A stretch of DNA of 64,000 nt from Thermaerobacter sp. PB12/4term (GTDB taxonomy: Bacteria; Bacillota; Sulfobacillia; Thermaerobacterales; Thermaerobacteraceae): positions 248,001 through 312,000 of the forward strand of contig NZ_CP048407.1 in NCBI RefSeq assembly GCF_003403315.2, read 5' to 3'. Position numbers and translations under genes: made by a program. Position 1 is the first letter of the stretch. Each line of letters starts with the position of its first letter. Under the pieces are notes generated by a model. That model was not told where the DNA came from and did no database searches. It saw only the letters and a list, made by a program, of their open reading frames with translations. This document shows positions 1 through 26,590 of the stretch, piece by piece.

Positions 1-1064
1 CCGTCGGCGTAGATCTCGCCGCCCTGGCGCAAGTCGCAGATCATGTCCCAGTGGATGGCGGACCGGTTCTTCCCCCCGGTGATGGGGTAGCTGGCCCCCA
101 GGGCCAGGTGGACGGTGCCGCCGATCTTCTCGTCAAAGAGCAGGTTGCGGCTGAAGCGGGTGATCTGGTCGTTGGTGCCGATGGCGAACTCGCCCACGTA
201 GCGGGCGCCCTCGTCGGTGCCCAGCAGCGCCTCCAGCAGGTCCTGCCCGCGGGCCGCCCGGGCTTCCACCACCCGGCCGTCCTCGAAGCGGAGGCGGATG
301 TCCTCGATCTCCTTCCCCTGGAAGATCCCCGGAAAGCTGAAGCGGATGGTGCCGCGGACGCTCTCTTCCACCGGGCCGGTGAACACCTCGCCGTCGGGGA
401 AGTTGATGTGGCCGTCGGCGTTGATCCAGGTCCGGCCGGCCACCGAGAGCGTCAGGTCGGTGCCGTCACCCACCACCCGGATCTCCCGCACGCCGTTCAG
501 GAATTCCACCAGCCCCTGCTGGCGCCGGCTCACGGCCTGCCAGGAGGCCACCGGGTCGTCGTCGTCCAGGCGGCAGGCCGCGAAGACGAACTCCTGATAG
601 TCGCTCAGCGACATGCCGGCTTCCTGGGCGAGGGCCTGGGTGGGGAAGAGGGTGACGCAGTACTTGCCGCCCTGGCCGATGCGGGACATGAGCTTGTCGG
701 CCAGGGGCCGCCGCGCCTCCTGCATGATGGCCAGGCGGCGGGGGTCGACGCCGCTGAGGGCCTTGACGTTGTGGGGCGCGTGGATCACCAGGGCGTGCCG
801 GTATTCCTCAAAGGCGATCCGCTCCAGAGGGGTCAGCACCCGCAGCTGCTCTTCCGACGCTTCCTTCAAGTAGATCTCACCCAGCCCCTCCAGCTGGGCT
901 AGGACCTGGGGGAAGGCACCCACCCGGAGGGCCTCCCGGTAGATGGCCTGGACCAGGGGCGTGGCCAGGTCGGACGTCTGGATGAGGAAGTGGTCGCCGG
1001 CCTCGAGGCCCAGGGAGTAGCGCACCAGCACCTGGGCCAGCTTCCGCACGCGGGGGTCGGTCAC
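1..1064 (-). CDS. M29-family metal-dependent aminopeptidase, 3' end outside the window
   Basis: The first 354 codons of a thermophilic-type (AmpS/AmpT/PepS) M29 aminopeptidase. It removes N-terminal residues from peptides in the cytoplasm using two metal ions. Likely metal ligands in family order are E226 (in GEVFTGP), E292 (GEFAIGTN), H319 and Y326 (FDEKIGGTVH..ASY), and H338/D340 (HWDM). The N-terminal part, with its early LGLEAGDHFLIQ segment, fits the family from its first residues. GTG at 1064 is chosen because GAAAGGAG lies about 9 bases upstream and homology begins there. The gene runs off the left edge after the HWDM motif, so roughly the last 50-60 residues are missing. It fits the peptide-use theme of the right end of the window, but is 45 kb away. 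Family assignment is firm; substrate preference is not visible. Confidence 0.93.
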   Translation of the reverse strand, partial: MTDPRVRKLAQVLVRYSLGLEAGDHFLIQTSDLATPLVQAIYREALRVGAFPQVLAQLEGLGEIYLKEASEEQLRVLTPLERIAFEEYRHALVIHAPHNVKALSGVDPRRLAIMQEARRPLADKLMSRIGQGGKYCVTLFPTQALAQEAGMSLSDYQEFVFAACRLDDDDPVASWQAVSRRQQGLVEFLNGVREIRVVGDGTDLTLSVAGRTWINADGHINFPDGEVFTGPVEESVRGTIRFSFPGIFQGKEIEDIRLRFEDGRVVEARAARGQDLLEALLGTDEGARYVGEFAIGTNDQITRFSRNLLFDEKIGGTVHLALGASYPITGGKNRSAIHWDMICDLRQGGEIYAD

Positions 1065-1233
1065 CGTCGTCGCTCCTTTCCGGTCTTAGGATTGCGACGC
1101 GGGGGCGCGGGGTTCCTCCCGGTGACAAACTACCGGTACAGTAGCACGGGGAACGACCAGTCCCGGCCGTCGTCCTGCTGGCCGGGGAGCCCGGGCCGCC
1201 GTTCGGGGTCAGAATGAAGGGGGAGGTGGGGGT

Positions 1234-1926
1234 ATGGCATGCCCGCCGTTTTCGTCGAACCACGACGGTGCGGCCAACCACCCTGCGCCGGAGGCTGTGC
1301 GCCACGGGCACACGGGCCACGGTGCTGGGCACCACGGACCGTGGGAGGCCCAGGTCTCCTGGGCGGAGATCTTCGAGCACCAGAAACGGCGACAAGCCCT
1401 GGTGGAGGAATGGTTGAAGTGGCTGGATCTCCGGCCTGGGGATCACCTGGTGGACCTGGGTGCGGGCCCGGGGCTCACCAGCCTGCTGGCCGCCCGCCGG
1501 GTGCTGCCCCATGGCCGCGTGTACGCGGTGGACCACTGGCCCGAGGCCCTGCGCTTTCTGCGCCGGCAGGTGGAGGGAGAGGGACTCGACAACGTGCACG
1601 CCGTCCAGGCGGACATCGCCCAGGACGACCTGGCCGGGGTCATCCCGCCCCAGCACGCCCGCAAGGTGGTCCTGGCCCATGTGCTCCACCATGTTCCGGA
1701 TCCGAGGGCAGTCCTGGGTCGCCTTCACCGCTGGCTGTTGCCGGGCGCCCGCATGGTGGTGGCGGAGTTCGATCCGGAGGGGGCCGGTGAGGTGGGCCCG
1801 CCCCGGGAGGAGCGCATTGCCGAGGCGGACCTGGCCGGATGGTTGACCGGTGAGGGTTTCAAGATCCTGGGTCGCAAGCACCATCCGGAGCATGAGCAGT
1901 ACGCCATCCTGGTCGAGCCGGCTTGA
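1234..1926 (+). CDS. class I SAM-dependent methyltransferase with His-rich N-terminus
   Basis: A 230-residue Rossmann-fold methyltransferase of the UbiE/Methyltransf_11 type; the methyl acceptor is unknown. Motif I is DLGAGPG at residues 74-80, and the acidic residue binding the SAM ribose is D100 (VYAVD). A VVLAHVLHHVPDP segment follows as motif IV/post-motif. ATG 1234 follows GGGGGAGG by a normal spacing. Residues 10-34 hold seven histidines and precede the core fold, so they may bind metal, but nothing proves it. The gene stands alone, convergent with the disulfide oxidoreductase gene, with a hairpin between them. The fold is secure; the function is open. Confidence 0.85.
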   Translation: MACPPFSSNHDGAANHPAPEAVRHGHTGHGAGHHGPWEAQVSWAEIFEHQKRRQALVEEWLKWLDLRPGDHLVDLGAGPGLTSLLAARRVLPHGRVYAVDHWPEALRFLRRQVEGEGLDNVHAVQADIAQDDLAGVIPPQHARKVVLAHVLHHVPDPRAVLGRLHRWLLPGARMVVAEFDPEGAGEVGPPREERIAEADLAGWLTGEGFKILGRKHHPEHEQYAILVEPA

Positions 1927-1990
1927 CCGGGGTGGGCATCCTTGCCCCTGCCGGCCGTCCTTGCCCGCCGCCCTGGCGGCGGGGTGCCAC

Positions 1991-2029
1991 GACAACCCGC
2001 CGGCCTCCCCTGGAGACCGGCGGGTTGTC
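1991..2029. terminator. hairpin between convergent genes, probable bidirectional terminator
   Basis: A perfect 13-bp stem, GACAACCCGCCGG (1991-2003) against CCGGCGGGTTGTC (2017-2029), with a 13-base loop. It lies between the methyltransferase stop (1926) and the oppositely oriented oxidoreductase stop (2048), where a shared terminator is expected. No clear T-run is present on either side, so the call rests on stem and location. Confidence 0.55.
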
Positions 2030-2047
2030 ACGGCCGAGGGAACCCTG

Positions 2048-2698
2048 TCAGGAAAGGGCCTCCTTGATCAACGCCAGCAGGTGCGGTTCCGGCGCCGCGC
2101 CTTCAACGGCAGCCGACCCGTTCACCACGGTCTTGGGAACACCGAAGACCGCGAACCGGTTGGCCAGATCGGGGAACTCCATGGCCTCGATGGCGTCAGC
2201 CCGCACCCGGTCGCTGGCGAGGGCCATCTTATGAGCCAGGCGGACCGCCCGGGGACAGTACGGTCACGTCGGCGTGACGAACACCTGCAGGTGGACGTCG
2301 GTGTCCAGCGACCGCAGGTACGCCTCGGTTTCCGGGGACAGCCCCGCGACACCGCGGGAGACGTCGACGATGTCGTCGATCAGCGTCCCGAACTCGTAAC
2401 CGGCCGGAATGCCGTAAAACCGCATCCCGGTGTCGCTGCCGTCCGCCCGGGCGAACAGGATGGCCGGGACCATGTCGACGCCGTGGCGCTCGGCCAGCTC
2501 GGGTTCCAGGTCGACATCGTGGACCTCAAGGGTGATGCGGTCGTCGAGCTCCGCCACCGCTTCCAGCAGCTGGCGGGTGTCCTCGCAGTAGGGGCACTCG
2601 TCTTTGTCTGCGCGGACGAACAGCTTGAGGACCACCGGTGATTCCATCGCCTCAAAGCGCCGCTGGATCTCCCGCCGGTCCTGATCGGAGATCTTCAT
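2048..2698 (-). CDS. tandem-thioredoxin-fold protein disulfide oxidoreductase, probable selenoprotein (in-frame TGA at 2264-2266)
   Basis: A PDO/glutaredoxin-like protein of two thioredoxin folds (216 residues if TGA is read through; family usual about 215-230). The first fold has C35-P-Y-C38 and the cis-proline P78 (DMVPAI). The second has x145-P-Y-C148 after FVTPT and the cis-proline P188 (FGVPKT). Codon 145, where the family has the attacking cysteine, is TGA. The frame stays open and homologous for 71 more codons to a true TGA at 2048. ATG 2698 follows a full AGGAGGTGA site. These are observations. Reading the TGA as selenocysteine is inference, supported by its exact position and by the hairpin just after it. 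The alternative is a TGC/TGT-to-TGA nonsense mutation giving a 144-residue one-domain product. An inverted repeat of GGGATCC (2720-2743) lies in the 5' leader. The neighbour upstream on the same strand is a CoA-disulfide-reductase-like flavoprotein, a plausible electron donor. Confidence 0.82.
2232..2266 (-). promoter_or_regulatory. candidate bacterial SECIS element following the in-frame TGA
   Basis: Read on the minus strand, the RNA starts with UGACC, which can pair with GG(C)UCA at 2237-2232. The apical hairpin is GGC-GGUCC-GCC at 2249-2239, extended by CC/GG across a small internal loop. GGUC in the loop begins 18 nt after the UGA. In the E. coli fdhF SECIS the comparable GGUC loop starts about 19 nt after UGA. 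The pairing was done by eye; no energy calculation was made. Confidence 0.5.
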
Positions 2699-2895
2699 CT
2701 CTTTCGTCACCTCCTCTCGGGGATCCCTCTCTTCGCGGATCCCGGGAGCCCCGGCCGGGCGGCGCGCCTGCCCGGTGATCGCCGAACACGCACCGTCCGA
2801 CCGGAAACCTTCAAAACCAGTGAAACCAGCGCTCTCTCGGGAACAGTGTGCCCGCCTGCCGGGGCGACCGGCTGCATGCACCGTCGGAGACGCAT

Positions 2896-4275
2896 CTAGT
2901 CCGACACGCCCCGGATGGCGTTCATGGCCTGGCGTGCGGCCACCAGCACCGGATCCCACACGGGCGCGAAGGGGGGTGCGTAGGCCAGGTCCAGTTCGTA
3001 GAGCTGGTCCACCGTCATGCCTGCATGGAGGGCCGCCACCAGCGTGTCGATGCGCAAGACGGCGTCGACCGGTCCCGCCATCTGGGCGCCCAGCAGGCGG
3101 CCGTCAGGCCCGTGGACCAGCCGGACGTGGAGCTTGCCGGCACCGGGGTAGTAGTGGGCGCGGGAGCCGTGGCGGATCGTCGTGGCCCCGGCCTCCAGGC
3201 CCGCCAACGCGGCCTCGCGGGCGGTCAGACCCGTACGGGCGACGCCCAGGTCGAATACCTTGACGATGGCCGTACCCAGTACCCCGGGGAAGCGGGCGTG
3301 GCCGCCGGCGGCGTTCTCGCCGGCCACGCGCCCCTGCTTGTTGGCCGTGGTACCGAGGGGAATGTAGGCGCGCCGGCCGCTGACCCGGTGGACGGTGTCG
3401 GTGCAGTCGCCGGCGGCATAGACGGACGGGTGCGACGTGCGCATGAACTCGTCCACCTTGATCGCCCGCCCGGCGCCCAGCTCGATGCCGGCCGCCTCGG
3501 CCAGCTCGGAATTGGGCCGCACGCCCACGGCCACCAGGACCAGATCGGCCGGCAGGGTGCGGGCGTCGGTGTCCAGCGCCCGCACGCGGCCACCGTCGCC
3601 CAGCACGGCCCGCGCCCCCTCGCCCAGATACAGCGCCACACCGTGACGGCGCAATTCATCGTGGACCAGCTCGGCCATCTCCCGGTCGAGGTTGGGCATG
3701 ACCTGGGGGAGACGCTCGACGATGGCCACCTCCATGCCGACGGTGACCAGGGCCTCGGCCATTTCGAGCCCGACGTAGCCACCGCCGATGACGACCGCCT
3801 TGCGTCTCTCCTGGGCCACCAGGGCCCGGGCGTGCTCGCGGATGGCGATGCCGTCCTCGACCAGCCGCAGGAAATGGACACCCTTCAGGTCGAGGCCGGG
3901 AATGGGCGGCTCGACGGGGCGGGCGCCCGTGGCGAGGATCAAGGTGTCGAACTCCACCTGCCGCTGGCGCCCGGTCACGAGGTCGCGTACCTCCAGGTAG
4001 TGTTCGTCCGGATGAATGGCCGTGACCTCGTGCTGGACGTGAACGGCGATGTTGCGTTTCTGGCGGAAGAACTCCGGAGTGTAGACCACCAGCTCGCCGG
4101 GTTCGCGGATCAGGCCGCCGACGAAGTAGGGCAAGCCGCAAGAGCCGTACGAGACGAAGCCGCTGCGCTCGAACACCTCGATCTCCAGGTCAGGATCGAG
4201 GCGACGCGCCCGGGAGGCGGCGCTCATGCCGGCCGCGACGCCCCCGACCACCACCAGGCGCTTTCTCCGGGACAT
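2896..4275 (-). CDS. FAD-dependent pyridine nucleotide-disulfide oxidoreductase, CoA-disulfide/polysulfide reductase type
   Basis: A 459-residue flavoprotein of the CoADR/NADH oxidase/Npsr group, which uses NAD(P)H to reduce CoA disulfides, persulfides or polysulfide. The N-terminal FAD motif is VVVGGVAAGMSAA (8-20). The single redox cysteine is C46 in YGSCGLPYFVGG, as in CoA disulfide reductases. The NAD(P)H-binding motif is VIGGGYVGLEMAEAL, and the second FAD segment is YAAGDCTDTVHRVSG. Tyrosines typical of the C-terminal dimer domain are present near DLAYAPPFAPVWDP. ATG 4275 follows CAGGAGATGG. The gene lies in the same direction as the DUF302 and ArsR genes upstream and the disulfide oxidoreductase downstream, consistent with one thiol-redox unit. 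A rhodanese domain, fused in some relatives, is absent here. Confidence 0.88.
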   Translation of the reverse strand: MSRRKRLVVVGGVAAGMSAASRARRLDPDLEIEVFERSGFVSYGSCGLPYFVGGLIREPGELVVYTPEFFRQKRNIAVHVQHEVTAIHPDEHYLEVRDLVTGRQRQVEFDTLILATGARPVEPPIPGLDLKGVHFLRLVEDGIAIREHARALVAQERRKAVVIGGGYVGLEMAEALVTVGMEVAIVERLPQVMPNLDREMAELVHDELRRHGVALYLGEGARAVLGDGGRVRALDTDARTLPADLVLVAVGVRPNSELAEAAGIELGAGRAIKVDEFMRTSHPSVYAAGDCTDTVHRVSGRRAYIPLGTTANKQGRVAGENAAGGHARFPGVLGTAIVKVFDLGVARTGLTAREAALAGLEAGATTIRHGSRAHYYPGAGKLHVRLVHGPDGRLLGAQMAGPVDAVLRIDTLVAALHAGMTVDQLYELDLAYAPPFAPVWDPVLVAARQAMNAIRGVSD

Positions 4276-4385
4276 GGTCCACCATCTCCTGTGGGCTCGG
4301 GGCGGCGGCGGGTACGCTGGGCCGCTCGCCCCGCATCGGTCCCCACCGGCGCGGCCTGGCCGCCCCGGAAAAGGATGCGGCGGCC

Positions 4386-4787
4386 TCAGCGGGCCGCCGC
4401 ATCCACCACCGCGCGCAGCTCCTGTTCCACCTCGGTCGCCAGGTCACGAAACCGCTCGTCGCCCAGCAGGCCGATCAGCGTCTGCGGGCGCAGCAGGCCG
4501 ATCTTCGTGCGGTTGCCGTCGTTGCGGTCGGCGTACACCACGATCTTGCAAGGCAGCAGGTAACCGACCTTCTGATCGGTCTCTAGGGCCTGCTTGGCCT
4601 TGGCAGGATTGCAGACCTCGAAGATGTGGAACTCGGGTTCGAGGTGGAAGCCCTTCTCTTGCAGCTTCTCGTTGACGTGCAGGTGCCAGAGGGCGCTGAA
4701 CTTCCGTTCCGCCAGCGCGGACTGCAGCGCTTGGATGGCCTCGTCCACCGGCTTGTCCGTGGCCACCGTGTAGTCCAGCTCCGCCAT
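4386..4787 (-). CDS. DUF302 domain protein
   Basis: A 133-residue soluble protein matching the DUF302 family through most of its length: an N-terminal YTVATDKPVDEAIQALQSAL segment, a central HIFEVCNPAKAKQAL, and LLPCKIVVYAD before a C-terminal helix. The biochemical role of DUF302 is unknown; members often sit with sulfur-oxidation or thiol-redox genes, as here. Two cysteines (in FEVCNP and LLPCKI) sit at positions common in the family. ATG 4787 follows GGAGGGAT at 7 bases. The gene is between the ArsR repressor gene and the flavoprotein gene, same strand. Confidence 0.85.
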   Translation of the reverse strand: MAELDYTVATDKPVDEAIQALQSALAERKFSALWHLHVNEKLQEKGFHLEPEFHIFEVCNPAKAKQALETDQKVGYLLPCKIVVYADRNDGNRTKIGLLRPQTLIGLLGDERFRDLATEVEQELRAVVDAAAR

Positions 4788-4954
4788 CGCCGATCCCTCC
4801 CTGCGGTTCCCGCCTGCGCTGGGCCCTGACCCGTTCGGCTGATGCGTCAACGGGCCGGTGGGCCCGGTTGGGGTTGTGCGGCGTTGACCTGCTCGGTGCG
4901 GGGCGCCGGCGTGCTTGGGCAGCCCCGCAAAGCCTGGCGTACGGGTTCGCCTCG

Positions 4955-5320
4955 TCACGGCTGCCCGGGTTGCGGACCGGCGCCGCTCTGAGCGGCCAGC
5001 ATCGCACTGCGCCGCAAGTGCTCGAGGAGCACGTGGCGAACGGCCTGGCACGCTTCCAGGATCTCGCGCGAGGCGAGCCGGTAATACACGTTGAGCCCTT
5101 CCTTCCGCGACTCCACAAGTCCGTACTGGCGCATGAGGGCCAGGTGCTGGGAGAGGTTGGCGGTGGTGGTGTCGACGACCCGCGCCAGCTCACCGGCCGT
5201 CATCTCACCGCCGGCCAGGGTATACAGAATCTCCAGGCGCTTGGGGCTGGCCAGCACATGACAGAGTCGCGCCTGCAGCTCCAGCAACTGCTTTTCCGTG
5301 TCCGTCCGCTCCGCAGTCAT
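4955..5320 (-). CDS. ArsR/SmtB-family transcriptional repressor, probable thiol/persulfide sensor
   Basis: A 121-residue winged-helix repressor. The core runs from about residue 13 to 90 with the recognition helix in TTTANLSQHLALMRQYGLV and the wing in ESRKEGLNVYYRL. Classic metal-site motifs (ELCVCDL, DxHxxxH) are missing. Two cysteines, C20 (RLCHVL) and C91 (EACQAV), are available. Known persulfide sensors of this family (SqrR, BigR, YgaV) also use a cysteine pair, although not at identical places. The gene is divergent from the rhodanese operon and has its own promoter with TAAG...CTTA repeats near the start. This suggests it represses both arms. That it senses sulfane sulfur is inferred from context. 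Confidence 0.85.
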   Translation of the reverse strand: MTAERTDTEKQLLELQARLCHVLASPKRLEILYTLAGGEMTAGELARVVDTTTANLSQHLALMRQYGLVESRKEGLNVYYRLASREILEACQAVRHVLLEHLRRSAMLAAQSGAGPQPGQP

Positions 5321-5666
5321 GGGCTACCGCTTCCCCGGCTCCTTGCTAAGTAACTTCTTAACTACTCCCAATATGATCCCCCATGCGCCCGCTGTCAAGT
5401 CGATCTTCTCCTGCGCCCCGGCACGTCATCCGGATCACGGCGGGCGCACCGCGTGCCCCCGGCCCTACCCGGCGCGCGGTCCGGCTGGAACGGCCGGCAC
5501 GAATCCGCATGGGGGTTGCACGCGGGGCAGGCACCTCGTAAACTGGTTGCTAGTTTCAGTAGTTGCTTAATCTCAAATAAGAATAGGCGTCATCCGGCTG
5601 AGCCCGGCAGGGTCGCCAGCAGGCGCCCCGGACCGCCGGTCCGGCCGGGGCCAAGGGGGGAACACC
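5321..5666. promoter_or_regulatory. divergent regulatory region with repeated AGTAGTT/TAAG half-sites
   Basis: This 346-base gap separates the two arms of the sulfur locus. It contains two AT-richer patches. Near 5346-5366 the sequence TAAGTAACTTCTTA is an inverted repeat (TAAG..CTTA) followed by ACTACT. Near 5547-5583, AGTAGTTGCTTAATC precedes AAATAAGAATAG. The heptamer AGTAGTT occurs at both, in opposite orientation (reverse complement AACTACT at 5359-5365; direct copy at 5559-5565). This is what two operators for one divergent repressor would look like. A -35-like TTGCTA (5547-5552) and a -10-like TAATCT (5568-5573) could form the plus-strand promoter, but the spacing is short (15). Confidence 0.5.
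5370..5398 (-). promoter_or_regulatory. sigma-A promoter of the arsR arm
   Basis: On the minus strand a perfect -35 TTGACA (5398-5393) is followed after 17 bases by CATATT (5375-5370, four of six matches). The predicted start falls about 40 bases before the arsR ATG at 5320, inside the putative operator. Confidence 0.65.
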
Positions 5667-6008
5667 ATGGCGATGCGCGCTCCGTGGCCGGACACCGTCA
5701 CGCCCGAGGAGCTGCGCCGGCGGCTCGAGGCGGGCAACGCCCCGCTGATCGTCGACGTACGCGAGCCCGACGAGTACGCCGGCGGGCACATCCCGGGCGC
5801 GCGGTTGCTCCCGCTGGGGCAGGTACCCATACGGTACCGGGAGTTGCCGTCCGACCAGGAGATCGTCCTCGTCTGCCGGAGTGGGAACCGCTCCGGCCTG
5901 GCCCAGCAATGGCTGCAGGGGATGGGTTTCCGCAACGTCCGCAACCTGGTGGGCGGCATGCAGCGGTGGAAGGGCCCGGTGGAATACGGCCCCGGGCGGG
6001 GTCGATGA
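5667..6008 (+). CDS. single-domain rhodanese sulfurtransferase
   Basis: A 113-residue rhodanese. Conserved VDVREPDEYAGGHIPGA (29-45) leads to the catalytic loop C70-RSGNRS, where the cysteine carries persulfide sulfur. GGMQRWKGPVE at the C-terminus is typical. ATG 5667 follows CCAAGGGGGGAA. It is the first gene of the plus-strand arm. The next gene starts 15 bases after its stop, so the two are likely co-transcribed. Likely role: accept or donate sulfane sulfur with the downstream rhodanese-MBL and TusA-rhodanese proteins. Confidence 0.9.
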   Translation: MAMRAPWPDTVTPEELRRRLEAGNAPLIVDVREPDEYAGGHIPGARLLPLGQVPIRYRELPSDQEIVLVCRSGNRSGLAQQWLQGMGFRNVRNLVGGMQRWKGPVEYGPGRGR

Positions 6009-6022
6009 GGGGAGGGACAGAG

Positions 6023-7234
6023 GTGGACCCAAGGACGCGTACTCCCTCGGAAATCGATGCCGCTGAGCTCAAGCGGATGCTGGACCGGGGCGAAACCCCG
6101 TTCCTGATCGATCTCCGCAATGACGAGGAGTTTCGCCGCTGGCGGATCGAAGGCCGCCAGCCCCTGCAGATGATCCACGTGCCGTACTACGAGATCCTGG
6201 CCGAGGCCGAGGAAGACGACCTCATCGCATCCGCCAAGGCCTACGCGCGCCGGCACTGGGTGGACCACCTGCCCCGGGAAGGGCGGATCGTGGTCGTGTG
6301 CGCCCACGGCGGCACCTCCGGGTATGTGGCCCAGGGGCTCCGCGAGCTGGGCTATGACGCCGTCAGCTTGCGCGGCGGTATGATCGCCTGGGGCGACCAC
6401 TACGAGTTTGTCCCCGTGGTGGAGGAAGAAGGCCTTGCCGTTTATCAGATCAACCGCCCGGCCCGCGGCTGCCTGAGCTATCTGGTGGCCTCGGAGGGGG
6501 AGGCGGTGATCATCGACCCCCTGCGCCACGCCGAGCGCTACCTGGAGTTCTCGCGCCGGCACGGCCTGACCATCACGCGGGTCCTGGACACCCACGCCCA
6601 CGCCGACCACATCAGCAGTGGCGCCGAGCTGGCAGAACAACTGGGCGTGCCCTATCACCTGCACCCCTACGACGCCATTCACCCCATGGACGTGTTGCCC
6701 GCTACCTTCCGCTACCAGCCGGTGTACGACGGGCAGGAGTTCCGTGTGGGCCGTGCCACCTTGCGTGCAATCCATGTGCCCGGCCACACCCTGGGCCAGG
6801 TGGTCTACCTGCTGGACGGTCGCTACCTGTTCAGCGGCGACACCATCTTCGTGGAGTCCATCGCCCGACCGGACCTGGGTGGCCGGGCCGAGACCTGGAC
6901 GCCCCTTTATTACCGGTCCCTTCTGCGCCTGATGGAACTGCCTGACGCGACGCTGGTTCTTCCCGGGCACTTCAGCCGGCCGCAGGAGGCGGACGCCCGC
7001 GGCCGCGTCGCCGGTACGCTGGGCGACCTCAAGCAGTCGAACGAGGGCCTGCAGGCCCTGGCAGCGGGCGAGCGGGCCTTCGTCGACTTCATCATGGGCC
7101 GCTTGCCGGAGTTCCCGCAGCAGTACGTGGACATCAAGCGGGTGAACACCGGTTTGCTGCGGCCGAGCGAGGAGCAGGCGTCCGAGCTCGAACTGGGGCG
7201 CAACGTCTGCGCGCTGGCGGAAGAAGCGGCCTGA
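6023..7234 (+). CDS. rhodanese-metallo-beta-lactamase fusion, persulfide dioxygenase type
   Basis: A 403-residue fusion. Residues about 10-135 form a rhodanese domain with catalytic C93 in VVVCAHGGTSG. The rest is an ETHE1/glyoxalase-II-like MBL domain with H191-A-H193-A-D195-H196, then HVPGHTLGQ, FSGDTIF and LPGHF. Enzymes of this family oxidise glutathione or CoA persulfide to sulfite with O2 (persulfide dioxygenase); the rhodanese part can move sulfur on or off. In CstB/PRF-type fusions the domains may be in the other order, so the N-terminal rhodanese is worth noting. GTG 6023 follows GGGAGGGAC at a good distance; an upstream open extension in this frame overlaps the rhodanese gene and is not used. 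Sulfite made here could leave by the TauE-like exporter. Confidence 0.88.
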   Translation: MDPRTRTPSEIDAAELKRMLDRGETPFLIDLRNDEEFRRWRIEGRQPLQMIHVPYYEILAEAEEDDLIASAKAYARRHWVDHLPREGRIVVVCAHGGTSGYVAQGLRELGYDAVSLRGGMIAWGDHYEFVPVVEEEGLAVYQINRPARGCLSYLVASEGEAVIIDPLRHAERYLEFSRRHGLTITRVLDTHAHADHISSGAELAEQLGVPYHLHPYDAIHPMDVLPATFRYQPVYDGQEFRVGRATLRAIHVPGHTLGQVVYLLDGRYLFSGDTIFVESIARPDLGGRAETWTPLYYRSLLRLMELPDATLVLPGHFSRPQEADARGRVAGTLGDLKQSNEGLQALAAGERAFVDFIMGRLPEFPQQYVDIKRVNTGLLRPSEEQASELELGRNVCALAEEAA

Positions 7235-7249
7235 GGGAGGGAGTCGTCC

Positions 7250-7858
7250 GTGAACGCTACGTTCAAGCCGAGCGCCACCGTGGATGCCCGCGGCCTTTCC
7301 TGCCCGTTGCCGATCGTGCGGGCGCGCAAGGCGATCGATGCCCTGCAGGTCGGGGAGATCCTCGAGGTGCTGGCGACCGACAAGGGCGCACCTGCCGATT
7401 TCCGGGGCTGGTGTGAGCAGACGGAGCACAAGTTCCTGGGCGTGGTGGAGGACGAAGGTTTCCTCCGGCTGTATGTCAAGAAGCTGGTCCCGGAAACCAA
7501 GGAGAAGGGACAGCTCTTCGAGCGCGAGATCAGCAGCCAGGAACTGGCCCGGCGCCTCGAGGCCGGGGACACGCTGACCGTTCTCGACGTGCGGGAACCG
7601 GAGGAGTACGAGGCCGGCCATATCCCCGGTGCCCTCTCCGTACCCATCGAGACGCTGTCCGAGTTTGCCGCCAAGCTCGACCGCACGGCGGAGATCGCCG
7701 TGGTCTGCCGCAGCGGCCGCCGCAGCGCCTATGGCTGCCGCATCCTGCAACAGGCCGGCTTCGAGAAGGTGGTCAACGTCGTGCCGGGCATGTCCGCCTG
7801 GTCGGGCCCGGTCGAGCAGGGCGGTGCCGGGGCTGCCCCGGCACCGGCATCCCGCTGA
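7250..7858 (+). CDS. TusA-rhodanese fusion sulfurtransferase
   Basis: A 202-residue two-domain sulfur carrier. Residues about 8-80 match TusA/SirA: VDARGLSCPLPIVRARKAID, with C18 in the CPxP motif, then an ATDKGAPADFRGWCEQT segment. Residues about 95-195 are a rhodanese with VLDVREPEEYEAGHIPGAL and catalytic C153 in VVCRSGRRS. TusA passes persulfide sulfur between proteins; the fusion would couple it to a rhodanese. GTG 7250 lies 15 bases after the previous stop with GGGAGGGAG in front. It sits directly before a DsrE-like gene, repeating the TusA-Rhd-DsrE combination of sulfur oxidisers, here in fused form. Confidence 0.9.
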   Translation: MNATFKPSATVDARGLSCPLPIVRARKAIDALQVGEILEVLATDKGAPADFRGWCEQTEHKFLGVVEDEGFLRLYVKKLVPETKEKGQLFEREISSQELARRLEAGDTLTVLDVREPEEYEAGHIPGALSVPIETLSEFAAKLDRTAEIAVVCRSGRRSAYGCRILQQAGFEKVVNVVPGMSAWSGPVEQGGAGAAPAPASR

Positions 7859-7933
7859 CGTCACGCCGGCATTCGGGTGCCACGGGTCAAAACGGGCTTC
7901 CGGCACGGCGAAATCAGGAGGGAGGGGTACGCG

Positions 7934-8332
7934 GTGTCCGTCCGTCGCGTGGCCATCATCGCCAGCCACGGGAACATCGACGACGCGTACAAGGTGCTGA
8001 ACATCGCCACGGCAGCTGCCGCCATGGGGGCGGAGGTCCAGGTCTTCTTCACCTTCGATGGCCTGAAGATCATCCATAAGGAAGCGAACCGGCAGTTGCC
8101 GGTGCCGGAGCACCTGCAGCCGGCGCTGGAGGGCTTCAAGAAGAACAACGTGCCTTCGGTGCCTGAGCTGCTGGAGATCGCCAGGGAATCGGGAGTCAAG
8201 CTGATCGGCTGCCAGATGACCATGGACGTCATGGGCATCGGCCTCGACGAGCTGGTGGACGGGGTCGAGCCTGGTGGCGCGGCCACCTTCCTGGCCTTTG
8301 CGGCCGAGGCCGACGTCAACGTCACCTTTTGA
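7934..8332 (+). CDS. DsrE/DsrF-like (DsrE2-type) sulfur carrier
   Basis: A 132-residue DsrE-fold protein. It opens with VAIIASHGNIDDAYKVLNIATAA and carries VFFTFDGLKII, both typical of DsrE2/DsrE3 proteins. A single conserved cysteine lies in LIGCQMTMDVMG, the usual persulfide-carrying position. The best start is GTG 7934, after CAGGAGGGAGGG; the longer open frame back to 7877 lacks a ribosome site. Unlike many DsrE2 proteins it shows no long N-terminal membrane segment. It probably exchanges sulfane sulfur with the TusA-rhodanese protein encoded 75 bases upstream. Confidence 0.85.
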   Translation: MSVRRVAIIASHGNIDDAYKVLNIATAAAAMGAEVQVFFTFDGLKIIHKEANRQLPVPEHLQPALEGFKKNNVPSVPELLEIARESGVKLIGCQMTMDVMGIGLDELVDGVEPGGAATFLAFAAEADVNVTF

Positions 8333-8448
8333 ACGGTGGGACCGGGCGCCCGGGCCCGGTCCCGGGCGCCCGGTGCACCCCGCGGCCACGTGCGGTAACG
8401 GGGCGCTTCAGGAATCTGAGGACATGAGACAAGGGGAGGAAGGCCCGG

Positions 8449-9222
8449 ATGAGCGCCCTCCTTTTCGTGATCGGCCTGGCTGGCGGGTTCTTCTCGGGAT
8501 TGCTGGGGCTCGGCGGTGCGATCCTCATGGTTCCACTGCTCCTGTTCGTCCCGCCGCTGTTCGGCTTCCCGGCCCTGGACATGAAGCAGGTGGCCGCCAT
8601 CACCATCGTGCAGGTGTTCTTCGCAGCGCTGTCCGGCATGGTGGTCCACTGGCGCAACCGGTTCGTCCACAAGGATCTGGTCCTGACCATGGGAGGAGCC
8701 AGCGCCCTCGCCGCCCTGGTGGGCGGCCTGCTGTCCGATCTGGTGAACGCCCGCGCGTTGCTCCTTCTCTTCGCCGGCGTTGCCACGGCCGCGGGCGTGC
8801 TGATGTTCCTGCCCCGCCGGGAAGAAGATCCGGACGCGACGGCGGACCACGTCCGCTTCAATCGGCCGCTGGCGGTGGCCATCGCCCTGGCGGTGGGGTT
8901 GGTGGGCGGGCTCGTCGGGGCGCCGGGCGCCTTCATCTATGTGCCCTTGATGATGTACCTGCTCAAGATTCCTACCCGGGTCACCCTGGGCTCGACCCTG
9001 GCCATCGTCCTCTTCACCGCCGCCTTCGGCATGGTGGGCAAGGTGGCGACGGGGCAGGTCGACTGGCCGCTGGCGCTGGCGCTGGTGCTGGGTTCGGTCC
9101 CCGGGGCCCAGGCGGGGGGGTATCTGTCGAAACGGGTCCGCGCCGGTGCGCTGCGCTGGATGGTCGCAGTCGTGGTCTGGGGGTCCGTGGTCCAAATGTG
9201 GCGCCAGGCCGTCTCCGGGTAA
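8449..9222 (+). CDS. TauE/SafE-family membrane exporter, probable sulfite/sulfonate permease
   Basis: A 257-residue integral membrane protein with about eight hydrophobic segments in two homologous halves. Each half opens with the family pattern: FVIGLAGGFFSGLLGLGGAI near the N-terminus and LAVGLVGGLVGAPGAFIYVP in the middle. TauE/SafE proteins export sulfite, sulfoacetate or related anions, or move sulfane sulfur compounds. ATG 8449 follows GGGGAGGAAGG. It is the last gene of the persulfide operon, and the upstream dioxygenase would make sulfite, so sulfite export is the simplest role. The substrate itself cannot be read from the sequence. Confidence 0.87.
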   Translation: MSALLFVIGLAGGFFSGLLGLGGAILMVPLLLFVPPLFGFPALDMKQVAAITIVQVFFAALSGMVVHWRNRFVHKDLVLTMGGASALAALVGGLLSDLVNARALLLLFAGVATAAGVLMFLPRREEDPDATADHVRFNRPLAVAIALAVGLVGGLVGAPGAFIYVPLMMYLLKIPTRVTLGSTLAIVLFTAAFGMVGKVATGQVDWPLALALVLGSVPGAQAGGYLSKRVRAGALRWMVAVVVWGSVVQMWRQAVSG

Positions 9223-9284
9223 CAGATTGTGCCGGCCGGGCAGGCCTCATCTCAAGAGGATTTCGGTCGCCAACACCGAATACG

Positions 9285-9335
9285 GTGCAAGTGATATGGA
9301 AGTGCAAATGATACGGAAGTGCAAGTGATACGGAG
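9285..9335. repeat. three tandem 17-bp repeats upstream of the cytochrome c lipoprotein gene
   Basis: Copies are GTGCAAGTGATATGGAA (9285-9301), GTGCAAATGATACGGAA (9302-9318) and GTGCAAGTGATACGGAG (9319-9335), with one or two differences between them and no spacer. They lie about 120 bases before the ATG at 9456, in an otherwise non-coding, AT-richer patch. A phased array of this kind suggests cooperative binding of a regulator, but no known site is recognised. Confidence 0.8.
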
Positions 9336-9455
9336 CTTCGATGCCGCGGTGACCGGCTGCCTGCGGGCCAGCGATGCCCTCAACATCTCAGGCCTGTGCG
9401 TCCAAGGCGCTGGTTCTCCGCGGCAGTGTCGTGCCTTGAAGGGGGTCCGTCGATC

Positions 9456-11093
9456 ATGGGAGGGCACCGTCACGCGTCCGTGGAGCCATGCCGTGCTCGC
9501 GTACGTCCCGGCTCGCATGGGGCCACCCGCCTTGGCCTGGCCGGGCTGGTGGCCGCATCGCTGTTGCTCGCCGCGTGCGGCGGGGTGATGACCCCGGCGG
9601 CGACCTTCGATCCCGACTACGAGGTGCGCTGGTACGAGTCCCAGAACGCTGCCGGGCCGGAACTCGATCCCAAGTGGGACGGTAACGGCTGGCTCTACGT
9701 CGCCGACGAGGTGAGCCAGGGTGTCACCGTGGTCGACCTGGCCACGGGCGAGCCGGTGCAGTTCATCCGCACCGAGGGCGGGGTACCGCACCACCCCTAC
9801 ATTACCAAGGACCAGCGCTGGGTGCTGGTGACCATCCGCTACGGCGACTGGGTGGCGGCCATCGACACGGACAACGGCAACAAGGTACGCCGCATCGACC
9901 TGCCCAAGTCGGCCGACGGCAAGCCGGCGGGACCGCTGCACATGGGGCTGACGCCGGACGGCCGGTACGCGCTGGTCACGTTGAACGGCTCCGGCGCCGT
10001 GGCGGTGCTGGATGCCACGGACCCCAAGTTGTTGCGTGTGGTGGAGGTCGGGAAGAAGCCGCGTGACGTGGTGGTCACCCCCGACAGCAAGAAGGCGTAC
10101 GTGAGCCTGCAGGCCGACACGCGGGTGGCGGTCCTCGACCTGGAGACCTGGAAGGTCGAGCACATCACGCGGACGGATACGGACTACGGTAGCGGTTCCG
10201 GCAGCGGCCTGGGGATGTCGGCCGACGGTAAGTACGTGGCCGTCGCCAATACCCTGGATGATGAAGTGATCATCATCGACACGGCGACGGACCGGATCGT
10301 CCACCGGGTCGGGAACGTGCCCAAGCCGGTGAACGTGGAATTCTTGGGCAAGACCCACGTCATCTCCACCGGCAACCGTTCCGACGGCTCCTTCTCCTTC
10401 ATCGATGCGGACAAGGGCCAGCTGATCAGGACCGTCAAGACGGGCGGCGGGGCCAACATCGCCTACTACGGTCCCGACGGCAACGTGTGGGTGAACCACA
10501 ACGGCGCCCAGCACATCAGCGTGCTGGACTTCGAGACCTTCGAGGTCATCAAGGAGATCCCGGTCGTCCAGAACCCGCACTGGATCTACTTCTCGCCGGA
10601 CGGGAAGACCGCCTACGTCACCAACTGGGGCGCCAACTCGATCTCCATCATCGATGTGGAGAAGATGGAGCGCGTCAAGAACGTGACGGTGGGCCTCAAC
10701 CCCAACGGCTTGGCGCTGAAGTCCAACGTCCCGCCGGACGTCATCGCCCGGTGGCAGGAGAACAAGGACCAGGCCAAGGAGGTCGTCGCCAAGGCCGCCA
10801 GGCTGGTGATGCCGGAGCCCCGCTCGGAGGCCGAGGCGTTATTCTTCCAGAAGTGCACGATCTGCCACGACGTGGGCCGCATCATCCGCAACAACGCCAG
10901 GGGTGACCAGTGGGACGCCATCGTGGAGAAGATGCGGGGCAACGGTGCGCCCATCGACGACCAGGAGGCCAAGATCATCGCCGAATACCTGAAGACGGAC
11001 CAGCACCGCAGCTTGACCATCAAGACGGAGTTGCAGATCGAGCAGCCGCTGGATCCGGCGAAGGGCTACGAAGACGACGCCGCGGTGCAGTGA
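9456..11093 (+). CDS. lipoprotein with YVTN beta-propeller and C-terminal cytochrome c domain
   Basis: A 545-residue exported electron carrier. A lipobox LLLAAC places the acylated cysteine at C41, so the protein is anchored outside the membrane. Residues about 60-420 are a beta-propeller with repeated YVTN-type blades (for example GKTAYVTNWGANSISIIDV), related to the propellers of cytochrome cd1 and nitrous oxide reductase. The C-terminal domain has one haem site, C467-TIC470-H471, with a methionine in EKMRGNG as possible distal ligand. ATG 9456 follows GAAGGGGG and gives a normal signal peptide; an earlier GTG-type extension (9396) is less likely. Downstream is a terminator and then the ba3 oxidase genes, so donation of electrons to that oxidase is plausible. 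The propeller's substrate is unknown. Confidence 0.8.
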   Translation: MGGHRHASVEPCRARVRPGSHGATRLGLAGLVAASLLLAACGGVMTPAATFDPDYEVRWYESQNAAGPELDPKWDGNGWLYVADEVSQGVTVVDLATGEPVQFIRTEGGVPHHPYITKDQRWVLVTIRYGDWVAAIDTDNGNKVRRIDLPKSADGKPAGPLHMGLTPDGRYALVTLNGSGAVAVLDATDPKLLRVVEVGKKPRDVVVTPDSKKAYVSLQADTRVAVLDLETWKVEHITRTDTDYGSGSGSGLGMSADGKYVAVANTLDDEVIIIDTATDRIVHRVGNVPKPVNVEFLGKTHVISTGNRSDGSFSFIDADKGQLIRTVKTGGGANIAYYGPDGNVWVNHNGAQHISVLDFETFEVIKEIPVVQNPHWIYFSPDGKTAYVTNWGANSISIIDVEKMERVKNVTVGLNPNGLALKSNVPPDVIARWQENKDQAKEVVAKAARLVMPEPRSEAEALFFQKCTICHDVGRIIRNNARGDQWDAIVEKMRGNGAPIDDQEAKIIAEYLKTDQHRSLTIKTELQIEQPLDPAKGYEDDAAVQ

Positions 11094-11197
11094 AGGCTAG
11101 CCGCGGTGGCGAGCCCGGCCGGTGACGGGGCCCTTCGCAACGGAACAGGGCCACGCGGCGATCCGCGGTGGTAGGTTCGCTGTGACACGTTTGCATC

Positions 11198-11236
11198 ACG
11201 GGACCTGTGGGAACGACCCCCCGGTCCCGTTTTTGT
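11198..11236 (+). terminator. Rho-independent terminator after the cytochrome gene
   Basis: Stem ACGGGACC (11198-11205) pairs with GGTCCCGT (11223-11230), loop 17 bases, followed by TTTTGTTTGT. The remaining 190 bases of this 334-base gap lead to the oxidase genes; I see no convincing promoter in them. Confidence 0.8.
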
Positions 11237-11427
11237 TTGTCTTCCTCCTTCAAAAGAGAACCGCGTTCGCTTTCTCAGCCGGCGATCAGGTTCTACTCAG
11301 CTTGTGCTCAGGGTCGTGGCCGACAGTTAAGGTGGCGCCCGCCCCGGCGGCTGCGCGCCAGGGTTGCCCCAGTTCATGCGGGGGATTTCACCCCATGGAG
11401 GCGTTGAAACCTGGGAGGTGGGGAGGA

Positions 11428-11607
11428 ATGGCCACGAGCATGCGGACCCCGGCGGAACGGCAGGCGCCGGCCCGGTCCATCCGGCCCAGGGCACGGGCGG
11501 AGGACATCCAGGCCCCGAAGGGGACGGTCCTGGTCACGTTCCTCTACCTGCTGGCGATTGCCGCGATGTGGGGCTTCATGTATCTCACGTTGCTGCGCAG
11601 TGCTTGA
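11428..11607 (+). CDS. small single-span subunit (IIa-like) of the ba3 oxidase
   Basis: A 59-residue protein with a charged N-terminus (many Arg) and one C-terminal membrane helix, about residues 36-56 (TVLVTFLYLLAIAAMWGFMY). Its size, topology and place directly before subunit II match the small subunit IIa/CbaD of ba3-type oxidases. Sequence identity in this family is too weak to prove it. ATG 11428 is preceded by GGGAGGTGGGGAGGA, an unusually strong site. A longer open frame from 11122 covers the upstream terminator and is not credible. Confidence 0.72.
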   Translation: MATSMRTPAERQAPARSIRPRARAEDIQAPKGTVLVTFLYLLAIAAMWGFMYLTLLRSA

Positions 11608-11691
11608 TACTCCCGTTCCCATGAACGCTTCGGGGCCGCACGGCGGCCGGCCCGCCGGCGGCAGCCTGGTTGGGGGTAGGGGGCGAGCGTA

Positions 11692-12174
11692 GTGCACGTC
11701 GACCGTTACGAAAAAACGTGGATTGTGATCAGCGCGGCCTTTCTCGTCGTGCTGATCCTGGTGATCGCTTACACGACCTTCGGAATGAACATCCACCTGC
11801 CCGACTCGGGAAGCGCCCACGCGGCCCACGGGCAGGCGGCCCACGTCACGGCGAATGACCCGCCCTTCACCTCGCCCGGTATGCGCGCGGTGGGGTCCAA
11901 CCAGTATGAGGTGGTCATGACCGCGCAGGTCTTCGGGTATGAGCCCAGCGAGATTCGCGTCCCCCGCGGCGCGGCGGTGGAATTCGTCCTGACCAGCAAG
12001 GACGTCATCCACGGCTTCCGCATTCCGGGTACCACGGTGAACGCCATGGTGGTCCCGGGCCAGGTAACACGGGTCCGCTACACCTTCGACCGGCCGGGCG
12101 AGTACACGTTCTTCTGCCACGAGTACTGCGGGATAGGGCACCACCTCATGTCGGGGCGGATCGTGGTCGAGTGA
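11692..12174 (+). CDS. cbaB: cytochrome c oxidase subunit II, ba3 type
   Basis: A 160-residue protein with one N-terminal membrane anchor (residues 10-28) and a cupredoxin domain outside the membrane, the short form typical of ba3 oxidases. All CuA ligands are visible: H107 (DVIHGF), C142, C146, H150 and M153 (CHEYCGIGHHLM), with E144 giving its backbone carbonyl. It takes electrons from cytochrome c or a membrane cytochrome. GTG 11692 gives the expected short N-terminus. The subunit I gene starts 26 bases after its stop. A His-rich linker (HAAHGQAAH, 43-51) is extra. Confidence 0.93.
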   Translation: MHVDRYEKTWIVISAAFLVVLILVIAYTTFGMNIHLPDSGSAHAAHGQAAHVTANDPPFTSPGMRAVGSNQYEVVMTAQVFGYEPSEIRVPRGAAVEFVLTSKDVIHGFRIPGTTVNAMVVPGQVTRVRYTFDRPGEYTFFCHEYCGIGHHLMSGRIVVE

Positions 12175-12199
12175 GGGGAGCGGCTGAAAGGGGGCCACG

Positions 12200-13972: not shown

Positions 13973-14260
13973 AGAGGCGACATGGTGACGCCCCTCCGAG
14001 CACGCGGCCCCGCGACTCCCCCACTTTCCTTTGTTCGGGAGCCCCGGGTTTTCTGGCGCGGGGACCGGGTGGTCCCGCGACCCGTGCCGGACCGGCTCGG
14101 CCGGTGCCTCCGCCGTCCCCAAGCGTTTCGACGGATCCCTCTCACGTCTCGAACCTCTTCGGCCCGTCCGTCACCCCTCGCCCGTCCCGGACCGGTTCCG
14201 CCGGTCCCTTTCACCCGGGCGCCGCCTGCGCTAGAAAGAGGACAGAGAGGAGCGACGGGC

Positions 14261-14656
14261 GTGATCGTCGGGACGGGGATCGACCTGGTCCAGGTCCAGC
14301 GCATCGAGGCCATCTTGCGCCGCCGCGGCTGGCGCTGGGCGGAGCGGGTCTTCTCGCCGGAAGAACTGGCCGCCGCCGGCACGGGGCCTCACCGGGCCCG
14401 GCGCCTGGCGGCCCGCTGGGCCGCCAAGGAGGCCTTTGCCAAGGCCCTGGGGACGGGCCTGCGGGGGTTTCGCTGGCGGGACATCCGGGTCCGCCAGGAC
14501 GGCAGCGGCCGGCCCTGGCTCGAGGCCGGCGGGCGGGCGGCCGAACTGGCGCGGGCGGCGGGGGTGCGCCGGATCCACCTCAGCCTGTCCCACGACGGCC
14601 AGTGGGCCGTCGCCCAGGTGATCCTGGAGGGCGACCCCGAGGAGGGAAGGCCGTGA
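14261..14656 (+). CDS. acpS: holo-[acyl-carrier-protein] synthase
   Basis: Transfers 4'-phosphopantetheine from CoA to apo-ACP, activating fatty acid synthesis. The protein has 131 residues (usual 120-130). Signature motifs are GIDLVQVQRIE with Mg ligand D8 and RWAAKEAFAKALG with E57, then a C-terminal HLSLSHDG. GTG 14261 follows GAGAGGAGCG. Its stop overlaps the GTG of the NAD(P)HX repair gene (GTGA), an arrangement common in Firmicutes, where acpS, nnr and alr are neighbours. Confidence 0.95.
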   Translation: MIVGTGIDLVQVQRIEAILRRRGWRWAERVFSPEELAAAGTGPHRARRLAARWAAKEAFAKALGTGLRGFRWRDIRVRQDGSGRPWLEAGGRAAELARAAGVRRIHLSLSHDGQWAVAQVILEGDPEEGRP

Positions 14657-16710: not shown

Positions 16711-16853
16711 GGCGCGCCGGGACCGGTGCCGGGGCGCCTTGGGCGAGGAGGACCCCCGGCGACGAGGATCCCTTGGCGACACCATGACCCGGCGATGGGA
16801 CTCCCGGCGACAGGGTCCGGCGCCCCGGGCGCGAAGCTTCAGGGGGAGGAGGA

Positions 16854-18044: not shown

Positions 18045-18202
18045 GGCGCCGTTGAGAGGCTGCCGAGGGCGCAGCGGCGGGGCAGCGGCAGAGCGGAAGA
18101 ACCCGGCCGAGGCCGCTGCGGCGGGCCGGCCGGGGCCGGCTGAAGGCCGGCGCGGCCGGTTCGTCCGGAACGGGGAGCGAGGACCACGAGGGGTGATGGA
18201 CG

Positions 18203-18424: not shown

Positions 18425-18425
18425 A

Positions 18426-18776: not shown

Positions 18777-18812
18777 GTCACGACCGATGTCATGGTGATT
18801 GGAGACGGTGGC

Positions 18813-19844: not shown

Positions 19845-19898
19845 GCGGTCCCCGCGGCGAGCGGGACCGGCGGCCGGTGCAGGAGGCGGCCTGGTATC

Positions 19899-22311: not shown

Positions 22312-22501
22312 CGGGCAGGTGGGCTGCGGTGCACGGGTTTCCCCCGCCCGCCCACTGGCCGGGGCGGGACATGGCCCACCGCCCGAAGGCCCCCGGCTGC
22401 CCGGGGGGAGCCGGCGACGCGCGGTAACCCCTGCCGTGGCCCGACACGCACCGGCAGGGCAAGATGCTATGATGGAACTGCCCTCGCGGGAGGTGAGCGG
22501 G

Positions 22502-24165: not shown

Positions 24166-24181
24166 CGCGGGAGGGGTGGCC

Positions 24182-26551: not shown

Positions 26552-26590
26552 CGAGCCGGCCGCGGCCCGCACGCTGGTTTCCGGCCCCCA

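Follow-up and report, generated by a model that had tools for sequence, protein, structure and literature searches.

The closest known systems to the locus described here are the staphylococcal and enterococcal cst operons (CstR, CstA, CstB, TauE, CoAPR), in which a persulfide-responsive repressor is found with rhodanese, TusA, DsrE, an MBL-rhodanese dioxygenase and an exporter. A second point of comparison is the SurR regulon of the Thermococcales (SurR, PDO, Nsr), a system of S0 reduction with hydrogenase links; Nsr is a member of the CoADR family, and we know of no dioxygenase or rhodanese arm in this system. Little is known of how persulfides are removed from proteins and how sulfur sensors are switched off in bacteria. 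According to PMC6196236, S. aureus TrxP and TrxQ reduce protein persulfides with TrxB. PMC7278568 and PMC6981617 describe the sulfur-responsive, ArsR-type SurR as controlling PDO and PDO as reducing SurR, the first of these, a review, presenting this as the resetting of the sulfur-oxidised regulator.

We analysed a window of 64,000 nucleotides, the whole stretch taken from Thermaerobacter sp. PB12/4term, in which positions 2048-9222 carry nine genes in two divergent series (Table 1). Gene calls and domain scans bore out the gene content of the initial annotation, all nine genes lying on the strands given there. The repressor had been placed between a thiol-reducing and a sulfur-transfer arm; it does lie at the divergence point, but it heads the minus-strand series ArsR-DUF302-CoADR-PDO rather than standing free between the arms, and the plus series (rhodanese, rhodanese-MBL, TusA-rhodanese, DsrE, TauE) diverges from it. 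Conservation of the set, proposed as a check, is found for eight of the nine genes, whose order is constant across all four congeners; the CoADR gene is present in three of them. We consider it rather probable that this is a sulfide/persulfide stress locus of cst-like kind, with the functions in separate genes and an ArsR repressor replacing CstR. We infer the activities, the inducer, the electron donor and the co-regulation, and the cluster would probably oxidise and export toxic reactive sulfur.

Table 1. Genes and candidate control elements at positions 2048-9222 of the window
Feature	Position	Strand	Remarks
Sec-PDO	2048..2698	-	two thioredoxin folds with sites CPYC (first) and U-P-Y-C (second); read through TGA
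SECIS-like hairpin	2236..2252	-	6 pairs, 5-nt loop; 14-30 nt past first UGA base
UGA codon 145 of PDO, read as selenocysteine	2264..2266	-	Sec machinery and congeners
CoADR-like flavoprotein	2896..4275	-	active-site Cys motif GSCGLPY; without rhodanese domain
DUF302 protein	4386..4787	-	PF03625; Cys C59 and C80 invariant
ArsR/SmtB-family repressor	4955..5320	-	NF033788, 80 bits; two Cys, C20 and C91
Possible operator half	5346..5358	-	AGAAGTTACTTAG
Minus-arm promoter	5370..5398	-	TTGACA-17-CATATT, promoter scan; -35 inside invariant run TGTCAAG
Possible plus-arm promoter	5516..5544	+	TTGCAC-17-TAAACT, by eye; weak, 3/6 and 4/6
Candidate operator	5554..5570	+	contains TTTCAGTAGTTGCTT (5554-5568), longest invariant noncoding run
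Single-domain rhodanese	5667..6008	+	PF00581; CRSGNRSG loop
Rhodanese-MBL fusion, candidate persulfide dioxygenase	6005..7234	+	PF00581 and PF00753; HAHADH, RPD
TusA-rhodanese fusion	7250..7858	+	PF01206 and PF00581
DsrE-family sulfur carrier, DsrE2-like	7934..8332	+	PF13686, 124 bits; NF047629, 101 bits, below cut-off
TauE/SafE-family exporter, predicted	8449..9222	+	PF01925, 162 bits

The cst grouping of sulfurtransferase, MBL-rhodanese and TauE genes is matched here, next to a repressor that would respond to persulfide. The differences are that the repressor is of the ArsR/SmtB instead of the CsoR family of CstR, that the rhodanese domain precedes the MBL domain, that DsrE and TusA lie in separate genes, that the flavoprotein is devoid of a rhodanese domain, that DUF302 and Sec-PDO are extra, and that no SQR gene is found within the locus. 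Persulfide dioxygenases (ETHE1, CstB, Blh) are recognized by the MBL ligands HxHxDH, H and D and by an R-x-D element. The rhodanese-MBL protein (P0006) carries all of them (THAHADH, PGHTLG, SGDTIF, RPDL) when aligned with 3tp9 and 3r2u, its closest solved structures, BpPRF and ETHE1 coming lower down; its score against the Blh model NF040641 is 68.6 bits, under the cut-off of 625.

The locus shares with the SurR regulon an ArsR-type regulator and a PDO, but the CxxC used by SurR is absent from the ArsR protein. This protein resembles SqrR, BigR, SoxR, sHdrR and HlyU in its ArsR fold, its two cysteines and its neighbouring sulfur genes. SqrR/BigR-type sensors have two conserved cysteines at shared positions, C50 and C116 in sHdrR (PMC12423496). 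Here the cysteines lie elsewhere: the HlyU cysteine matches Y33, there is no cysteine past C91, and C91 is itself variable, being kept in 12 of the 16 aligned relatives, C20 in all 16. We thus rejected a SqrR/BigR-type identity, on account of Y33 at the first site.

Divergent co-regulation of both arms from the single intergenic region is plausible, because the elements of this region are conserved and include an invariant block of 15 nt. An invariant run of this length was reached in 14 of 20,000 column shuffles. The plus-arm promoter candidate was not among the predictions of the promoter scan; in the alignment its position and spacing are kept in four congeners, with TATACT in G002 and G003. 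The two candidate operator halves were as alike or more in 222 of 2000 shuffles, which is not significant. The pattern AGWAGTTRCTTAR has two exact matches in the genome (seven for the reversed control), a circular result since it was derived from these two sites; it does not recur beyond chance at the ArsR gene of L122, and in the congener G003 (L104) the plus-arm site alone was found with up to two mismatches. The paired-operator idea was dropped on these grounds and only the 15-nt block was kept. An Rfam search of positions 1-12000 gave no known regulatory RNA, all five matches being far below the gathering score.

The mechanism that we propose would run as follows. In the repressed state ArsR would sit on the intergenic region and silence both divergent promoters; sulfane sulfur would modify it, C20 being invariant and C91 mostly kept, and release both arms. 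The rhodanese-MBL protein would receive sulfane sulfur from the rhodanese, TusA-rhodanese and DsrE proteins and oxidise low-molecular-weight persulfide to sulfite (or thiosulfate), and TauE would export the anion. Sec-PDO would reduce protein persulfides and disulfides, plausibly including the repressor itself, with electrons mainly from the thioredoxin reductase of the genome. The CoADR-like flavoprotein would be an accessory, reducing CoA disulfide or persulfide, and DUF302 might partner the sensor through its cysteines. Several observations speak against this scheme: the ArsR cysteines are off the known sensor positions and C91 is absent in 4 of 16 relatives, the likeness of the operator halves is insignificant, the plus promoter matches the consensus weakly, the rhodanese-MBL protein falls below the Blh cut-off, the locus has no SQR gene, and PDO is not exclusively linked to sulfur.

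Comparison with relatives sustains the assignment to persulfide handling, Sec-PDO included. Their PDO genes lie repeatedly beside rhodanese, MBL, DUF302, DsrE or TusA genes and repressors of the CsoR or ArsR family. Several of these sulfur loci are independent of the present one. In L108 and L109 a CsoR-family gene diverges from MBL and Sec-PDO genes, with DUF302 also present; L047 combines a rhodanese-MBL gene (59% identical), TusA, DsrE, PF03601, a CsoR-family gene, a flavoprotein and PDO; and L038, L122 and L188 show PDO, flavoprotein, DsrE, TusA, flavoprotein and an ArsR of the same subfamily. Of the 35 class loci, 14 have a CsoR-family or same-subfamily ArsR gene no more than 4 kb from PDO and one has it farther out, and this association is commoner than the CoADR pairing. 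PDO cannot be regarded as a sulfur gene exclusively, as 17 of the 35 loci, including both further Sec-PDO genes of the genome, have none of 16 marker families near or far. The contig search for PDO loci used TPTCPYC, which favours Cys-PDO, and 80 of its 498 confirmed loci were taken; neighbours were clustered for 116 of 120 loci, the other four lacking a PDO match, and adjacency at contig ends can be missed in several fragmented genomes.

Could the neighbourhood have been assembled without forming one pathway? In that case PDO, CoADR and the sulfurtransferase series would be later additions, in this genus, to an older ArsR-DUF302 unit that perhaps served a thiol or metal response. ArsR-DUF302 does occur apart from the rest of the locus in G004, G005 and G146 (on short contigs in the first two), in G004 DUF302 is directly followed by the M29 peptidase, which in the window lies on the far side of PDO, and the rhodanese-MBL protein, at 1e-60, is confined to 9 of 154 class genomes in three genera. 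However, the remaining components accompany PDO again in lineages not related to this one (L047, L108, L109, L188), so that the association is not accidental, and gene order is kept in all four congeners. We judge this reading unlikely.

The initial annotation had also proposed a dedicated NAD(P)H-CoADR-PDO electron route. Members of the CoADR family have a single active-site cysteine for a small disulfide, which speaks against the proposal. The flavoprotein shows the superfamily match and the active-site motif, with 452 bits against TIGR03385 (CoA-disulfide reductase), below the cut-off of 579, and its closest solved structure is 6ruz. PMC9405070 describes E. faecalis CoAPR as a CoADR-family enzyme controlled by CstR and defines it by a rhodanese domain at the C terminus that brings a second catalytic cysteine; the domain scan found no rhodanese match in the flavoprotein (P0002). 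PDO and CoADR are same-strand neighbours in three of the four congeners; G007 (L107) and a pair of Chloroflexi records (L060, L086) also have them side by side, and in the 61-genome set they adjoin in 2 of the 11 genera having both genes. In a comparison of G000 with G003 the PDO-CoADR block reaches 98.3% and 96.7%, against 88.2% for the M29 peptidase and 82.5% for ArsR, as though it had been exchanged as one unit. On the other hand, G002 keeps PDO and the other seven genes with no CoADR orthologue (best 32%), and the two genes co-occur in 17 of 61 genomes when 14.8 are expected, that is, at chance level (cut-offs of E 1e-90 for CoADR and 2e-26 for PDO, G021 and G040, with only weak PDO matches, being scored as PDO-less). 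CoADR is missing from 13 of 30 PDO genomes and PDO from 13 of 30 CoADR genomes, a canonical thioredoxin reductase is encoded elsewhere in the genome, and among the 116 PDO loci listed thioredoxin reductase adjoins 9 and CoADR 5, kinship ignored. The dedicated route is thus left unsupported by the missing CoADR of G002, the chance-level co-occurrence and the thioredoxin reductase, and we regard it as improbable; an accessory link may exist, as the adjacency recurs in other lineages.

We favour instead persulfide reduction by Sec-PDO, with thioredoxin reductase as the main source of electrons, and possibly a resetting of the sensor as for SurR. More tentatively, and with the odds rather against it, Sec-PDO might be the eraser of the locus's own sensor, a fast thiol reductase built on selenocysteine, stripping the persulfide from the repressor and so ending the response. 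If so, one PDO kit would have been combined with repressors of unrelated fold (ArsR in this locus, L038 and L188; CsoR/CstR-like in L108, L109, L123-L126 and L137), a bacterial and mostly selenium-based counterpart of the Thermococcus SurR-PDO loop. A selenoprotein reductase genetically linked to persulfide-type repressors of two folds is a testable candidate for the removal and switch-off step, and the locus offers a possible reason for selenocysteine in thermophiles.

DUF302 had been counted in the thiol-reducing arm, for which we find no basis: it tracks the repressor and not the reductases, lying within 4 kb of it in 9 of the 17 genomes carrying the ArsR orthologue. Its C59 and C80 are kept in 10 of 10 aligned relatives and, being linked to both repressor types, it could be a relay between PDO and the repressor; the locus would also add this uncharacterised family to the sulfur-response genes. 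That ArsR is a metal or metalloid sensor and the locus serves metal stress seems very improbable. Similarity to ArsR/SmtB metalloregulators is at family level, and the methyltransferase adjoining PDO has arsenite methyltransferase as its best NCBIfam match, far below the cut-off; against this, the locus contains neither metal efflux nor arsenate reductase genes, and the CsoR-family repressors of the relatives have two cysteines, most without the His that marks the copper type.

The PDO protein in itself is nothing new, the novelty being its sulfur-locus setting. It scores 270 bits against TIGR02187 (PDO_seleno_TRX), above the curated cut-off of 185, the family name already implying selenoprotein members, and P. 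furiosus PDO (1a8l) matches it over residues 3-215. Within the open literature we found no report of selenocysteine with Thermaerobacter and no treatment of Sec-PDO in sulfide stress; 'protein disulfide oxidoreductase' and 'persulfide' came together in sulfur-metabolism work only in a Thermococcus proteome study. A genuine stop or a sequencing error splitting the PDO is scarcely credible and was rejected, since only the stop codon itself speaks for it, while all four congeners have the TGA at the identical codon and 24 of 35 class loci have one at the active site (two, L120 and L134, being unreadable by pattern), selA, selB and a tRNA-Sec (anticodon TCA) are encoded in the genome, and the hairpin goes with UGA. 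With an in-frame UGA, the machinery and a SECIS-like hairpin all present, the codon very probably specifies selenocysteine. Single-sequence folding 3' of the TGA gave z values of 0.56, -0.42 and 0.76, and the comparison of UGA with Cys genes alone separated the groups. In this comparison, drawn from 28 UGA and 70 Cys distinct sequences and restricted to the 17 and 28 sharing the amino-acid motif, all six pairs of the hairpin were found in 15 of the 17 UGA genes and in 2 of the 28 Cys genes, kinship being ignored.

The initial annotation had listed nine genes at 2048-9222 of the window, in divergent arms around an ArsR gene, and gene calls and family scans, the latter consistent with all nine assignments, confirmed this content and its strands. 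The window belongs to a 2.82-Mb genome, possibly of a Thermaerobacter-like thermophilic firmicute to judge by GC content and gene style; GC content in the window is about 0.64-0.73 over the first 14 kb vs 0.70-0.80 at 14000-34000. Downstream of TauE, a beta-propeller cytochrome c gene and the oxidase genes COX2/COX1 follow (9396-13855, plus strand); the position of COX2/COX1 is kept in the congeners G002 and G003, and the cytochrome gene is absent from G002.

Genes of the putative persulfide locus (window coordinates; PDO, protein disulfide oxidoreductase; MBL, metallo-beta-lactamase)
Gene	Position	Strand
PDO	2698-2048	minus
CoA-disulfide-reductase-like flavoprotein (CoADR)	4275-2896	minus
DUF302	4787-4386	minus
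ArsR	5320-4955	minus
rhodanese	5667-6008	plus
rhodanese-MBL	6005-7234	plus
TusA-rhodanese	7250-7858	plus
DsrE	7934-8332	plus
TauE	8449-9222	plus

Like the initial annotation, we infer a persulfide locus here, which is a variant of an already known kind of system. Reported precedents include a CoAPR under CstR control (PMC9405070), thioredoxin-like persulfide reductases working with TrxB (PMC6196236) and a CsoR-like protein of Thermus that represses sulfur oxidation and has a thioredoxin and a methyltransferase among its targets (PMC10318464). PDO is described both as the reductant of SurR (PMC7278568) and as controlled by it (PMC6981617), and sulfide sensing and CstB have been reviewed (PMC9774590).

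In an unbiased ORF clustering of 116 PDO loci, with families named from profile matches or by eye, the loci having a given family within 3 kb of PDO and at 4-10 kb numbered, respectively, 17 and 0 for glutaredoxin-like proteins, 14 and 6 for rhodanese, 10 and 1 for the CsoR family, 9 and 0 for methyltransferase, 5 and 2 for CoADR and 5 and 1 for DUF302. Sigma-factor-like (16 and 7) and zinc-finger-like (14 and 0) families, named by eye and mainly from Chloroflexi, were equally frequent, and the company of PDO is therefore not made of sulfur genes alone. At one locus, L097, the methyltransferase gene follows PDO immediately and has the same orientation. The window has a class-I methyltransferase at 1234-1926 (plus), convergent with PDO, whose best NCBIfam match, arsenite methyltransferase, scores far under the cut-off.

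A CsoR-family gene, or an ArsR gene of the same subfamily as the ArsR of the window, was found within 4 kb of PDO at 14 of the 35 loci of the class, with five CsoR genes at 140 bp or less on the strand of PDO; one more CsoR, at a greater distance, stands next to an apparent copper ATPase. A particular His marks the copper type of CsoR. Most CsoR proteins near PDO have two Cys and lack this His, the exceptions being the L090 protein and the second one in L126. At L108 and L109 a CsoR-family gene is divergent from MBL and the selenocysteine form, Sec-PDO, with DUF302 also there, and L038/L188 have the order PDO-flavoprotein-DsrE-TusA-flavoprotein-ArsR. L047, with the order rhodanese-MBL-TusA-DsrE-PF03601-CsoR-flavoprotein-PDO, is a cst-like operon with PDO. 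This Candidatus Bipolaricaulota locus (4846-10627 of L047) has its seven genes in a row on one strand; its PDO is the cysteine form, its rhodanese-MBL is 59% identical to the window protein and its PF03601 gene is an exporter. L152 has two flavoproteins 2-3 kb apart, one of which (11189-12361) bears a weak resemblance to the selenoprotein-type sulfide:quinone reductase family, at 147 bits against a cut-off of 525, and is a possible persulfide source outside the locus.

The dedicated NAD(P)H-CoADR-PDO electron route that had also been proposed is not supported. Among 61 genomes, PDO (2e-26 or better) and CoADR (1e-90 or better) each occur in 30, and together in 17 vs 14.8 expected under independence. 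They are adjacent in four of these 17 (G000, the genome of the window, G001, G003 and G007; 2/11 genera) and in two Chloroflexi records (L060, L086). From these counts, the two genes are neighbours above the chance-placement expectation, yet the link is not obligatory. CoADR is absent from G002, where an orthologue was sought throughout (best hit 32%, 1e-37). A thioredoxin reductase is encoded in the genome of the window (400 bits, cut-off 343), and its family lies within 3 kb of PDO at 9 of the 116 loci (at none at 4-10 kb), but near it at just one of the 35 class loci. On this evidence, we take the CoADR-like flavoprotein to be at most an accessory.

As for conservation of the gene set, eight of the nine genes keep their order in the four congeners and CoADR is found in three; in G002, which lacks it, PDO and DUF302 are 35 bp apart. 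In G003 (L104, 9403-10828) rhodanese-MBL is split near residue 382 by an insert of 1.4 kb that has inverted terminal repeats and carries an ORF of 428 aa, which we take to be transposase-like. Rhodanese-MBL (1e-60 or better) is present in 9/154 class genomes (3 genera) and the ArsR orthologue in 17/154 (10 genera), with DUF302 within 4 kb of it in 9 of the 17. In G004, of the same family, ArsR-DUF302 is directly followed by a peptidase, presumably M29, which in the window sits past PDO and the methyltransferase. This contiguity suggests that PDO and CoADR were added later. Identity between G000 and G003 is 98.3% for PDO and 96.7% for CoADR vs 88.2% for M29 and 82.5% for ArsR, as if the PDO-CoADR block had been exchanged as one unit.

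Within the intergenic region (5321-5666), a scan found a minus promoter (TTGACA-17-CATATT), and a weaker plus candidate (TTGCAC-17-TAAACT, 3/6 and 4/6) was seen by eye in the alignment and not in the scan. The three longest runs invariant in the four congeners are TTTCAGTAGTTGCTT, right after the plus -10, GGGGTTGC, spanning the plus -35, and TGTCAAG, spanning the minus -35; an invariant run of 15 nt was attained in 14/20000 column shuffles. After the minus -10 there is a 13-mer similar to the plus-side run, though not significantly so. Co-regulation of both arms is thus no more than plausible. In aligned relatives, ArsR C20 is Cys in 16/16 and C91 in 12/16, and the two align at positions different from the Cys of HlyU, a protein reported to group with BigR, SqrR and SoxR (PMC12423496).

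The TGA at PDO codon 145 occupies the first-Cys position of the second CPYC, is kept in 4/4 congeners, and is accompanied in the genome by selA, selB and a tRNA-Sec (anticodon TCA). Over the 35 class loci the active-site codon is TGA in 24, Cys in 9 and not determined in 2. A 6-pair hairpin 14-30 nt past the first TGA base has all pairs intact in 15/17 TGA genes vs just 2/28 Cys genes matched for amino-acid motif (Mann-Whitney p 7e-8, uncorrected for ancestry). Sec-PDO as such is already known, as the TIGR02187 family carries the name PDO_seleno_TRX; the searchable text of one selenoprotein survey mentions neither thioredoxin nor glutaredoxin (PMC5029168). Two more Sec-PDO genes are found in the genome (G000:C1:1919614-1920321 and 2618453-2619235), and none of 16 marker families sought beside them was found. 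L038 and L122, from two genomes of one genus, are the same PDO locus with Sec at the active site in one and Cys in the other.
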